Source: a virus
Strand: one strand, 5' to 3'
Virus record (IMG/VR): IMGVR_UViG_3300009703_000092
Location: 1-25,718 of that record
DNA length: 25,718 bases
Positions 11,638-17,196 of the stretch are shown piece after piece. Positions within the stretch are counted from its first letter, which is position 1. Each line of letters starts with the position of its first letter. The notes below the pieces were generated by a model. That model saw nothing but the letters and a program-made list of their open reading frames with translations, did no database searches and was not told where the DNA came from. The translations under genes and the position numbers were made by a program.

Positions 11638-11775
11638 ATGCTGCAGCAGACTGCTCGAGCTAGGTGAGAATGCTTGAGCATATAGTGCTGTAGCGGTCTG
11701 CCGAGGTGAGAAACTTACGCTGTAGCACATAGCGCTGCAGCGGTCTGCCCTCGTGAGAAACAATCGCTTGACCAT
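11638..11775 (+). repeat. Three tandem hairpin repeats with a GTGAGAA loop, 47-base period
   Basis: Copies begin at 11638, 11685 and 11732. Copy 1: ATGCTGCAGCA pairs with TGCTTGAGCAT (11671-11681). Copy 2: GTGCTGTAGCG pairs over 11 positions with CGCTGTAGCAC (11718-11728), including two G-U pairs. Copy 3: AGCG pairs with CGCT (11765-11768). Loops share GTGAGAA; copies 2 and 3 also share GCGGTCTGCC. Wobble and paired changes between copies point to folding as RNA. Function unknown. Confidence 0.65.
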
Positions 11776-12044: not shown

Positions 12045-12089
12045 ATATCTAGCAGGATGGTTTCGCTACAGTGCCGCGATTTTTGCTTC

Positions 12090-12132
12090 CAGCTACCATA
12101 GACTTATATATGTAGAGCGGTTGTAAAGTTGC
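12090..12132 (+). promoter_or_regulatory. Duplicated promoter, copy A
   Basis: CAGCTACCATA, three variable bases, TTATATA (12104-12110), three bases, then AGAGCGGTTGTAAA. The same elements in the same order recur in copy B. The start site should lie near 12133, so the AGAGCGGTTGTAAA box sits between TATA and start, where an archaeal repressor would block polymerase. The leader then forms GCAATTG/CAATTGC (12131-12137/12152-12158) and GGAG before the ATG. Confidence 0.62.
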
Positions 12133-12170
12133 AATTGTGCTTACGAAGTATCAATTGCTGGAGTTAAAAA

Positions 12171-12539: not shown

Positions 12540-12607
12540 TGACTTGGTATAATTTCAAGCAGTGGTGCAGACATATGCTAGGATTAGGATTTAATTACAA
12601 ATATTAA
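12539..12607 (+). CDS. Possible 22-residue micropeptide
   Basis: Starts at ATG 12539 sharing a base with the stop before it (TAATG) and ends in a second TAATG. Residues are aromatic and basic (MTWYNFKQWCRHMLG). The overlaps suggest coupled translation, but so short a frame could be chance. Confidence 0.3.
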   Translation: MTWYNFKQWCRHMLGLGFNYKY

Positions 12608-12810
12608 TGAACACAGCGGAAAGGAATTCAGCAGCAAAATATAGGTTCGTTCAAGCCTCAACTCCGGTTGCTGGGTTCCCCGCAAATGCTGTAGCAGTGA
12701 GAGAAATGCTCGCAGCTACCATAAGTTTATATACTCAGAGCGGTTGTAAAAGTGCCGTTCTGCTATTGAGCAATCAAATGCTGGAATGGGAAGTGAATAG
12801 CAATGCCTGA
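12607..12810 (+). CDS. Doubtful frame overlapping promoter copy B
   Basis: A 67-codon frame that begins in TAATG and overlaps the start of the next gene. It shows no domain. Its second half spans a GTGAGAG hairpin and the duplicated promoter, whose conservation at DNA level suggests regulation, not coding. It may be translated incidentally on transcripts from copy A. Confidence 0.3.
   Translation: MNTAERNSAAKYRFVQASTPVAGFPANAVAVREMLAATISLYTQSGCKSAVLLLSNQMLEWEVNSNA
12688..12716 (+). repeat. Fourth hairpin of the GTGAGAA-loop family
   Basis: GCTGTAGCA (12688-12696) pairs with TGCTCGCAGC (12707-12716) around a GTGAGAGAAA loop. Stem core GCTGTAGC and loop match the tandem hairpins about 1 kb upstream. 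It abuts promoter copy B. Confidence 0.5.
12713..12755 (+). promoter_or_regulatory. Duplicated promoter, copy B
   Basis: CAGCTACCATA, then TTTATATA (12726-12733), then AGAGCGGTTGTAAA, as in copy A. The start should fall near 12756, giving a leader of about 47 bases to ATG 12803. It would drive the multi-zinc-ribbon and peptidase operon in step with the 12171 gene. Confidence 0.62.
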
Positions 12811-14533: not shown

Positions 14534-15833
14534 ACGCAAAAACACTGGCGTAGATAAAGCATTCACAATTACTGATGATGAAGTAATTATTGATATGCCA
14601 AAAGAAGCACCAGTTAAAGTAAAGCAAAGTAAACTGACTAAGTTCAAGGTTCAAAACAAGCCTTCAGACATTAAGTTGCTGAGAGAAATGTTTTCAATCT
14701 ATTCACCATCTGGTGACGAGCACGCAATGGTAGCGTATGTCAGTAATTACTTGACCGCCCACGAAATAGAGCATAAGATTGACAGTGTCGGTAATATTTA
14801 CTTCAAAAACCATATTGAAGGAGATAACCGTATCATTGTTAATGCTCATATGGACACAGTGGCGAACGCAGTTGCTGATGTAGGCATTTTCAAAACCGCA
14901 GACGACATAGTATTTAAAAGCAAAAACAATCAAGTGATTGGTGGCGATGATAAATGCGGTGTTTTCGCTGTATTGAAATTAATAACCGATAGGAATTTTC
15001 AAATTCCATTGACCGGCCTACTAACAGTAGCAGAAGAAACAGGATGCAACGGAGTAAGACACGCAATGAATCAGCATATAGACTATTTCGCTGATTGTAT
15101 ATTCTGGGTCACAGTAGATAGACGTGGTAATGACGAAATCATTACAACTAACAGCGACTATCAATTGTCATCTGACGATATTACAACTATGCTAGATAAT
15201 TTAGATGCAAATTGGAAAACTTCAACGGGTTCAATATCCGATGTCAGCGAGGGTGTAGTATCATTAGAGATTAATGGTATCAATCTAGCTGCAGGTTATT
15301 ACAATGCCCACAGTGGAAGTGAATATGTGTCTTTTAAAGACTTAAGTAATTCAGTTGCATTTCTCAAGCAAACATTAATTCCTACTATGCAACGTCATCT
15401 TAGCGCAAATCCAGACCAAGTTAAGTATAAACCATCTCACGCATACAGTTCGTATGGCTGGGGTGCATACAACAATTACAGTGGATACACTAAGAAAGTT
15501 GAAGGTGGAGTCACATATTATACATCAAACCAAGCAAAAGATGATTGGGATGTTTTAGATGACGCAGAAGATAAACTGTGCTTAGTAATCAATGAAGTAG
15601 AGCGTATAGAAGGCTTTATGGTATTAGATGAATTGCACGATGTCCACTGTGAATTGACTAAATCCAAGAAATCAATACGAATGACAGATGCAATGTTGCA
15701 GCACCCAGACGAGTTGGCTGTAATCGGTCGATATGTCACAGTGCGTAGTGATGGACCTGATGCATTAGTAGACATTAAGTCGCTAGAAGAATACACAAGC
15801 TTGTATGAATACGGTGAAGGTGATTGGCATTAG
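14523..15833 (+). CDS. Clan MH zinc metallopeptidase (M20/M28/M42-like)
   Basis: A 436-residue protein with all expected metal ligands and catalytic residues in order: H109 and D111 in NAHMDTVA, bridging D142 in GGDDKCG, catalytic E171 and ligand E172 in VAEETGCNG, D199 in VTVDRRG, H263 in YYNAHSGSE. Spacing between D199 and H263 is short, so it lacks the lid domain of typical M20 dimers and is nearer to aminopeptidases of M28/M42. The first 50 residues are a basic extension and about 290-436 an extra domain. It would remove amino acids from peptides or split a small peptide-like substrate in the host cytoplasm. Unusual in a virus; frame and active site are intact. Confidence 0.82.
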   Translation: MSSKRKNTGVDKAFTITDDEVIIDMPKEAPVKVKQSKLTKFKVQNKPSDIKLLREMFSIYSPSGDEHAMVAYVSNYLTAHEIEHKIDSVGNIYFKNHIEGDNRIIVNAHMDTVANAVADVGIFKTADDIVFKSKNNQVIGGDDKCGVFAVLKLITDRNFQIPLTGLLTVAEETGCNGVRHAMNQHIDYFADCIFWVTVDRRGNDEIITTNSDYQLSSDDITTMLDNLDANWKTSTGSISDVSEGVVSLEINGINLAAGYYNAHSGSEYVSFKDLSNSVAFLKQTLIPTMQRHLSANPDQVKYKPSHAYSSYGWGAYNNYSGYTKKVEGGVTYYTSNQAKDDWDVLDDAEDKLCLVINEVERIEGFMVLDELHDVHCELTKSKKSIRMTDAMLQHPDELAVIGRYVTVRSDGPDALVDIKSLEEYTSLYEYGEGDWH

Positions 15834-16158
15834 TAAAAAACATAGCGGTAATGTAAAGTTAGATTGTCCCGAGTGCTTAGATAAGACAGGTGATAACCTC
15901 AGAAAAGTAGAAGATTTCTACAGATGCTCGGGTTGCCACAATGAGTGGTTCTCAAGCGAGTTGATTAAAACTAAATACAAAACAGCTACGTTTGTAAATG
16001 AGCAAGGTAAAAGAATATACATAGGTCAAACACCCAACCGGCTTGAAGAAATGAAAGTAAGAGGTGTATATGATAAGATTGCTGAAAATAGGAAAAGGAA
16101 TAAATTAGGAAGATTCAGCAGAAAAGACAAAAATTTACTACGGAGGTTAAGAAAGTAA
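15805..16158 (+). CDS. Zinc-ribbon protein with basic C-terminus
   Basis: A 117-residue protein overlapping the peptidase end by 29 bases. CPEC at 21-24 and CSGC at 41-44 make one zinc ribbon like those of transcription factors (TFIIS/TFB type); the remainder is basic and ends in RKDKNLLRRLRK. A transcription or nucleic-acid role is plausible. GTG codons at 15814 and 15820 are alternative starts with less overlap. Confidence 0.68.
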   Translation: MNTVKVIGISKKHSGNVKLDCPECLDKTGDNLRKVEDFYRCSGCHNEWFSSELIKTKYKTATFVNEQGKRIYIGQTPNRLEEMKVRGVYDKIAENRKRNKLGRFSRKDKNLLRRLRK

Positions 16159-16165
16159 GCGGATA

Positions 16166-16358
16166 GGTAAAGAGTTAATTTGGTTGATTAAAGCATTGTC
16201 CGTAGAGTGTGGCACCCTTTTGGCTGGGTATATGGTTTTGCGGTATGATGAGTGGCCACTACAGAATTCATTACACAATGCTAAGGCATTTGTTTCTCAC
16301 CTTTGACAAGTCAACCGCTGAGTCTACTTTGGGCGTGGCTCACAGTTAGCTCTTTACC
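16166..16358 (+). ncRNA. Strongly folded viral RNA candidate, ~193 nt
   Basis: No gene lies here, yet distant segments pair in nested order. P1: GGTAAAGAGTTAA (16166-16178) with TTAGCTCTTTACC (16346-16358), 13 pairs with one G-U. P2: GGTTGA (16182-16187) with TCAACC (16311-16316). P3: AGCATTGT (16192-16199) with ACAATGCT (16275-16282). P4: GTAG (16202-16205) with CTAC (16259-16262), and inside it hairpin ACCC/GGGT (16214-16217/16226-16229). The 3' part has TTTCTCACC, the reverse complement of the GGTGAGAAA loop of the hairpin repeats. I recognise no tRNA, RNase P, SRP or box C/D pattern. Confidence 0.68.
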
Positions 16359-16377
16359 CCGTAAATACTGATTAATT

Positions 16378-17196
16378 ATGGAAATAACAATAACAAACAC
16401 AGACGCAATCCGAGCTATGACTGACGAACAGAGAGTTTTTTACTTCAATGCTATTGAAGCTAGCTGGGTAGGGAGAATAGTTTCATCAAATCAAGATGAT
16501 ATGTATATTTCTGACAATGCTGGATACTGGGCAACATTAGCTTATGTTAATAAACGACCAACTGTATTCAGACACAACCCTCATAAGCTATTCCGAGTTG
16601 ATACGAACGCAAAATCTGAAAAGATTAAACGAGAGCATTTAGTTAAACTCTGGAATGGTATTCTTGACAATACAATCACAGGAGATGTTGTGCTGTATAG
16701 AAGTGGAAGATGTCGTTGGCCTGATTTAAAATACCCAATACATCACAGCCACAACAATACATTTTTTATTATGACAGGTCGAACCGAGTGGACCAACAGA
16801 GCAATAGAGGTATATGAACCACAAGAAGTGCTTGTTCACAGTTCAATGTTATCAGATTTTCAAAGATTCAAATCACAATGCAAACACTCAGAAAAGATAG
16901 GAGCACAAAAGCATATGTCACAACGGCTTCAAGCCGCCAAACAATGGATTAGACGCACTGCTGCTATTTACTCTATATTAAATTTAGAACAAAGTGAGTG
17001 GAGTGTAGCTTTAACACAATACAATGAACCAACAAGATGTGGTTTTTTAGCGTGGTCGCAAGGTAAAGTGTTAACTTGGTGGCACGTTGCTCACAATACA
17101 CCATCACCACTGCACATTATACCACCCAACACACCAATATTAGCACTTAGTGATGACGATATTACCAAATATTTAAATAGGAGCGAGAGTGATTAG
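16378..17196 (+). CDS. Hypothetical protein
   Basis: A 272-residue soluble protein starting right after the folded RNA, 20 bases past its closing stem. It is rich in His and Trp (HHSHNN near 122-127, KVLTWWHVAHNT near 229) but I see no catalytic pattern I can name. The RNA before it may act as its leader. No clear Shine-Dalgarno is present. Confidence 0.7.
   Translation: MEITITNTDAIRAMTDEQRVFYFNAIEASWVGRIVSSNQDDMYISDNAGYWATLAYVNKRPTVFRHNPHKLFRVDTNAKSEKIKREHLVKLWNGILDNTITGDVVLYRSGRCRWPDLKYPIHHSHNNTFFIMTGRTEWTNRAIEVYEPQEVLVHSSMLSDFQRFKSQCKHSEKIGAQKHMSQRLQAAKQWIRRTAAIYSILNLEQSEWSVALTQYNEPTRCGFLAWSQGKVLTWWHVAHNTPSPLHIIPPNTPILALSDDDITKYLNRSESD
17172..17179 (+). promoter_or_regulatory. TATA box opening the micro-gene cluster
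   Basis: TTTAAATA within the end of the upstream gene, centred about 26 bases before ATG 17201, so a leaderless mRNA is expected. It is the likely main promoter for the chain of small genes that follows. Confidence 0.5.

Follow-up and report, generated by a model that had tools for sequence, protein, structure and literature searches.

Candidate bulge-helix-bulge RNA elements between genes of marine archaeal tailed viruses

The analyzed DNA (hereafter, the window) is a 25,718-base virus record from IMG/VR. Its left part carries terminase, portal, and capsid-type genes, and its right part carries early genes. Two of its intergenic gaps carry members of a family of RNA elements that a clade of tailed viruses of marine archaea keeps at fixed gaps. 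The larger window element, at positions 16159–16365 of the plus strand, has the form of an archaeal bulge-helix-bulge (BHB) motif, the type of substrate recognized by the tRNA-splicing endonuclease EndA. We consider it probable that these are conserved viral BHB elements that are cut by the host EndA and joined by the host RtcB, so that intron-like RNAs would be excised from viral mRNA. The motif, its conservation, covariation, strand preference, and distribution were observed directly, as described below.

Architecture of the two elements in the window

The larger element lies in a gene-free gap (16159–16377, stops in all three forward frames) between two plus-strand genes, a position denoted here as site B. 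The upstream gene, a conserved neighbor, encodes a zinc-finger-like protein of 117 aa with weak similarity to DUF7836 (15805–16158), and the downstream gene encodes a fast-evolving protein of 272 aa with no assigned function (16378–17196). The original prediction had rightly placed a structured RNA in a gene-free stretch just 5′ of a gene of unknown function. Since site B is located 3′ of a stop codon and 5′ of a start codon, no reading frame is interrupted. An M42-like peptidase gene is found two genes upstream of the gap, and the order peptidase, zinc finger, gap, and 272-aa homolog is maintained in the relatives.

The site-B element has the layout AGUA A GCGG [AUA] GGUAAAGAGUUAAUU ... AGUUAGCUCUUUACC CCGU [AAA] UACU, with the bulges in brackets. 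From the 5′ end, a 4-bp outer helix (AGUA at 16154–16157, pairing with UACU at 16366–16369; minimum-energy fold and motif scanner) and an unpaired A at 16158 in the minimum-energy fold are followed by a 4-bp central helix formed by GCGG (16159–16162) and CCGU (16359–16362), which is seen in the minimum-energy fold and supported by covariation. The central helix is flanked by two 3-nt bulges identified in the folds, AUA on the 5′ strand (16163–16165) and AAA on the 3′ strand (16363–16365), the former preceding the inner closing helix and the latter separating the central helix from the outer one. The inner helix comprises 15 contiguous pairs (16166–16180 with 16344–16358; scanner, fold, and covariation) and encloses a variable interior (16181–16343), for which comparisons with shuffled-sequence energies and between viruses showed no conserved structure. 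Four nested helices closed by a 13-pair stem had been proposed for this region; of these, the outer stem holds up, although with other ends than proposed, and the bulges and 4-bp helix had been missed, as had a second copy at 12616–12686 and the restriction of conservation to the closing part.

The folding energy of the site-B element is only mildly better than that of shuffled sequences and is marginal when considered alone. The interval 16160–16365, suggested earlier for comparison with shuffled controls, folds at −62.8 kcal/mol vs. −54.1 ± 4.9 for the shuffles (z −1.8; 13/200 shuffles as good), and the element with exact ends has z-scores between −2.1 and −2.3. The interior alone folds no better than its shuffles (z +0.75), and the 8- and 6-pair inner helices of the original prediction, though present in the minimum-energy fold, are not supported, with no conservation of the interior among the five viruses with a site-B element. 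The element is matched by a covariance model with 36.2 bits (E 4e-6), although it was absent from the training set of that model, and the gap is shared by four relatives. A search of Rfam at the gathering score, including group I and group II introns and SRP RNA, identified no family in the window and only tRNAs at seven relative loci.

The interior was also proposed to pair with hairpin repeats through the complement of the GGTGAGAAA loop. This complement is indeed present at 16294–16302 (it occurs in 17 of 20,000 shuffles), but the full 9-mer is found in none of the 18 other elements, one of which has 7 nt of it, and RNA–RNA pairing of the site-B element with the GGTGAGAAA hairpins was rejected because it is not conserved elsewhere. 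The hairpin array itself, with GGTGAGAA-type loops, occupies positions 11640–11770 and contains about 11 nt complementary to 16290–16302 in this genome; GGTGAGAA hairpins also occur in the relatives L013, L017, L018, and L056.

The second window element (12616–12686, plus strand), at a position denoted as site A, precedes a 576-aa gene and has the layout GCGG [AAA] GGAAUUCAGCAG .. UUGCUGGGUUCC CCGC [AAA]. It was detected by the covariance model with 39.7 bits (E 4.6e-7) and has a folding z-score of −3.9, none of 200 shuffles being as good. Eight relatives carry an element at the equivalent site, which is occupied in 9 of the 10 examined viruses with the 576-aa gene; no element was found there in G028. 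A 67-aa open reading frame (12607–12810) overlapping the element is probably not a real gene, and similar chance frames overlap element A in G008, G016, and G026. The vicinity also contains a 79-nt direct repeat with 75% identity between its copies. The first copy (12084–12162) has a 7-bp closing stem and a folding z-score of −2.15, and the second (12707–12785) lies 3′ of element A and ahead of the 576-aa gene, a place taken by a tRNA-Lys gene in G008 and G016. The repeat was not called as tRNA and is perhaps a decayed RNA gene.

Distribution and conservation in related viruses

Relatives of the window were collected via the terminase (56 loci) and an alignment of the M42-like peptidase; searches with the 272-aa protein or with a single M42-like protein gave no relatives, and an alignment of the 576-aa protein yielded no additional virus. 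A total of 19 BHB elements were counted in 15 related ocean viruses at four kinds of site: before the 576-aa gene (site A, 9 elements), between the zinc-finger and 272-aa genes (site B, 5 elements), upstream of a p89 homolog (site D, 4 elements), and adjacent to tRNA-Glu (1 element). Their predicted excised lengths vary between 64 and 304 nt. The four site-B relatives (L068/G008, L073/G026, L074/G027, and L075/G028) were located by gene order alone, without a motif search, and their gaps have the same end architecture but different sequence. Further copies at other gaps were obtained by a motif scan. The covariance model, trained on eight short elements, recovered four already-known elements left out of training, the site-B window element among them, and revealed new ones in G013, G025, and G027, as well as the site-A element of the window. 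Eight matches came from a pattern scan of all IMG/VR: three are on contigs with known elements, and three represent further viruses of the clade; the other two, both in one unrelated sequence, do not form the motif and were discarded. Only the two already-known relatives were real among the 11 matches of a 5′-arm pattern scan of IMG/VR, and no DNA relatives of the site-B element were found among phage records. One weaker copy (L068 7158–7269, 24.2 bits), whose imperfect central helix has only 3 bp, was excluded from the count of 19; located 3′ of the 272-aa homolog, it is possibly a third BHB-like element in G008.

Some relatives have no element at site B. A short KVSEIDKD-type open reading frame is found there instead in G013, G025, G010/G016, and G029, and G030 has no gap at all; therefore, the site-B element is gained or lost cleanly. 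The short peptide in the element-free gaps is conserved (KVSEIDKDLI..YWRKRLLK) and is encoded at L069 9941–10093, L070 5101–5253, L072 5842–5988 (reverse strand), and L081 5607–5783.

Pairing of the closing part is maintained in related genomes. Standard pairs constitute 98.8% of the 323 pair cells in the 19 elements, a percentage that is biased for the scanner-found elements, as pairing was a requirement of the scanner. Changes on both sides were observed at 12 of the 17 pairs, and the covariation score is 0.774, compared with 0.263 ± 0.026 in column shuffles (0/500 as high) and no more than 0.125 with the partner shifted by 1–3 positions. The five site-B elements were located by gene order or by the original prediction rather than by the motif; among these five alone, the central helix takes three different forms, and several stem positions show compensation. 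The BHB is contained in the unconstrained minimum-energy fold of every element (19/19). Strict motifs, as defined only after the first elements were seen, number 14 in 0.62 Mb, compared with 0.1 on average over 20 shuffled versions of that DNA. Run generically, the BHB scanner lacked specificity (509 matches, with many in shuffles also), which was gained by adding the bulge sequences.

Strand preference is pronounced. In 18 elements with 306 pairs altogether, G-U occurs 41 times and A-C once; therefore, sense RNA, rather than DNA or antisense RNA, is under selection. Together with the covariation, this strand-specific excess bears out the original prediction that the virus encodes a structured RNA with a long closing stem, rather than a DNA inverted repeat.

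The closing parts share a common geometry. Both 3-nt bulges, on opposite strands, are present in all 19 unconstrained folds, with the central helix preceding the bulge on the 5′ strand and with invariant bulge lengths; their sequences are AUA or AAA and AAA or AAU. The central helix is 4 bp long and paired in 19/19 elements, and three of its four pairs covary. The inner helix varies between 12 and 17 bp. The first outer pair is present in 19/19 elements; in several of them, including the site-B element of the window, the outer helix is short, imperfect, or displaced by an unpaired A. In the closing stem, 8–10 bp from the 5′ bulge, there is an invariant A-U pair followed by G-C or G-U and then by a U-G wobble (15/19); this conserved triplet is not accounted for by what EndA is known to recognize.

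Conservation of the interiors was detected only among orthologs, at site A for some and at site D for all four; none was seen from one site to another or within the site-B group of five (mean z 0.40 for B–B and 0.09 for A–D). A single conserved non-coding RNA fold within the stem has no support across sites. On inspection, the interiors contain CUCC/UCACC, for which an anti-Shine-Dalgarno function is conceivable. The closing motif common to all sites, with interiors that differ, constitutes a pattern that would be typical of an intron.

Predicted processing and alternative explanations

The viral elements fit the definition of the archaeal BHB and are oriented as in tRNA introns (PMC7714728, PMC4090602). 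Moreover, the AUA and AAA bulges of the site-B window element are identical to those of a BHB RNA co-crystallized with the EndA of A. fulgidus and ARMAN-2, which has AUA on the 5′ side and AAA on the 3′ side (PMC12397907). In that substrate, a non-cleavable deoxy-U occupies the middle of AUA, and the 3′ site is cut between the second and third A. By analogy, the host EndA would cut after the second base of each bulge (AU/A and AA/A), i.e., between 16164 and 16165 and between 16364 and 16365, and would release an RNA of 200 nt (16165–16364), as expected from the motif geometry. The host RtcB would then close the released RNA into a circle with the predicted junction TTTACCCCGTAA to AGGTAAAGAGTTAA and rejoin the mRNA with the predicted junction AAGTAAGCGGAT to ATACTGATTAATTATGG, bringing the stop codon of the zinc-finger gene and the start codon of the 272-aa gene to within 19 nt of each other. 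A second excision, with predicted cuts between 12621 and 12622 and between 12685 and 12686, would release an RNA of 64 nt (12622–12685) from the site-A element. The excised RNAs are probably circular; from the established biochemistry of EndA and RtcB, we infer that the elements are cut, the ends joined, and the product circularized, and likewise any role that the circle or the rejoined mRNA may have.

Neither EndA nor RtcB genes were found in the virus records examined. HGTV-1 and some haloarchaeal tailed viruses carry tRNAs and RtcB (PMC8651126). The tRNAs of the studied viruses are of the archaeal type (Lys CTT and Glu CTC; L073 6086–6163, L068 2465–2542, L070 1607–1684, and L082 7892–7969). 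Within the GTDB collection, the 22-base D-arm pattern of the viral tRNA-Lys and tRNA-Glu is confined to three contigs, from Marine Group III CG-Bathy1, Thermoplasmata UBA9653, and Euryarchaeota CSMAG_707, and in the first two it is located in tRNA-Glu genes. CG-Bathy1, a candidate host from tRNA similarity only, carries both EndA and RtcB, and Marine Group III is tentatively proposed as the host group. A search of 390 Thermoplasmatota genomes, of limited sensitivity, revealed no proviruses or elements, and the terminase was found neither in these genomes nor in GTDB contigs.

Excision by EndA has to be weighed against several other explanations. The elements may act uncut, as BHB-like stems that regulate or stabilize viral mRNA or bind a protein, which we regard as unlikely. 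They directly precede genes, as such a role would suggest, and the invariant A-U pair and the U-G wobble (15/19) at a fixed distance in the stem suggest another binding partner. On the other hand, covariation is free in the central helix, whereas bulge length is the same in every element, the bulge letters equal those of the EndA crystal substrate, and, to our knowledge, only EndA substrates need two opposite-strand 3-nt bulges 4 bp apart. A less probable possibility is that EndA only cleaves the polycistronic transcript, freeing neighboring mRNAs or tRNAs with no meaningful religation, as in rRNA processing stems, which also employ the BHB motif (PMC7714728). All viral tRNA genes found (four distinct loci) are indeed located 17–120 nt from an element; however, most elements, including both in the window, adjoin no tRNA, and ligation normally follows BHB cuts (PMC7714728, PMC4731332).

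That the elements are decoys, occupying or inhibiting the host splicing endonuclease and hence host tRNA maturation, seems quite improbable: several near-ideal motifs per genome and interiors free to vary would suit this role, but the copies are few and located at fixed gaps, which suggests action in cis, and there is no sign of an uncuttable bulge. We give almost no weight to chance or to a DNA-level inverted repeat, such as an attC-like recombination site, a transposon end, or a replication cruciform. The site-B window element taken alone (z about −2, 13/200 shuffles as good) would be compatible with these, in contrast to the 14 strict motifs observed where 0.1 was expected and to the positions conserved in gene order; a DNA cruciform or attC-like site is ruled out by the asymmetry between G-U and A-C pairs and by covariation. 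Two further identities were rejected. ARAGORN, applied to the spliced exons and circularized interiors of 18 elements, identified only separate neighboring tRNAs, and not a permuted or intron-bearing one. A cbf5-type intron in a protein-coding gene was dismissed, as no reading frame is restored by splicing at site B or in the site-A ATG frames read; the spliced ATG frames at site A hit stops within a few codons (window and G016, read by hand). Excision by EndA and joining by RtcB is the reading that we retain.

Relation to known archaeal BHB RNAs

In archaea, tRNA, rRNA, and a few other RNAs are known to undergo BHB splicing. The nearest precedent for the viral elements is the intron in the 5′ untranslated region of HVO_1309 in Haloferax volcanii, a BHB intron of 46 nt that was seen as a circle and is cut by recombinant EndA; HVO_1309 is down-regulated upon EndA knock-down (PMC7714728). 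Like the viral elements, with their predicted 64–304 nt, it is a BHB-closed RNA outside a reading frame and outside tRNA. It is, however, a single cellular case, cut and circular, whereas the viral elements form a repeated intergenic family known from sequence alone. Canonical tRNA introns (hBHBh′) have the same 4-bp helix, 3-nt bulges, and orientation, but the viral elements are located outside tRNAs and their splicing yields none. Similarly, the processing stems of archaeal 16S and 23S rRNA are long helices with a BHB that release circularized RNA, whereas the viral stems enclose no rRNA and have short, variable interiors. The circular SRP RNA of Thermoproteus is a functional circular non-coding RNA made via a BHB (PMC4731332); the viral elements share the BHB but contain neither SRP nor any other Rfam RNA. 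The cbf5 introns of Crenarchaeota also place a BHB in mRNA, but they interrupt reading frames, in contrast to the intergenic viral elements. The same difference holds for an archaeal virus with putative introns of 12 bp (Peng et al., cited in PMC2738675), which interrupt reading frames and were reported without demonstrated splicing. They are the only earlier virus case that we found; among open-licence papers, a scope in which an earlier report may be missed, there was no report of BHB elements between archaeal virus genes. The viral elements are predicted BHB substrates, and they appear to be new as a repeated, conserved, and intergenic viral family.

It is possible, though we would not lean toward so broad a conclusion, that they represent a class of virus-encoded circular RNAs made by the host EndA and RtcB, often more than one per genome and with roles of their own in infection; they would then be the first family of non-coding RNAs in archaeal viruses to depend on splicing. 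The 19 elements are ready candidate substrates for purified EndA, and they provide a sequence signature for finding viruses of uncultured marine archaea. Conserved, repeated, near-ideal substrates between virus genes would mean that viruses exploit the BHB splicing pathway and, if this is true, archaeal mRNA splicing extends beyond cbf5 and HVO_1309.
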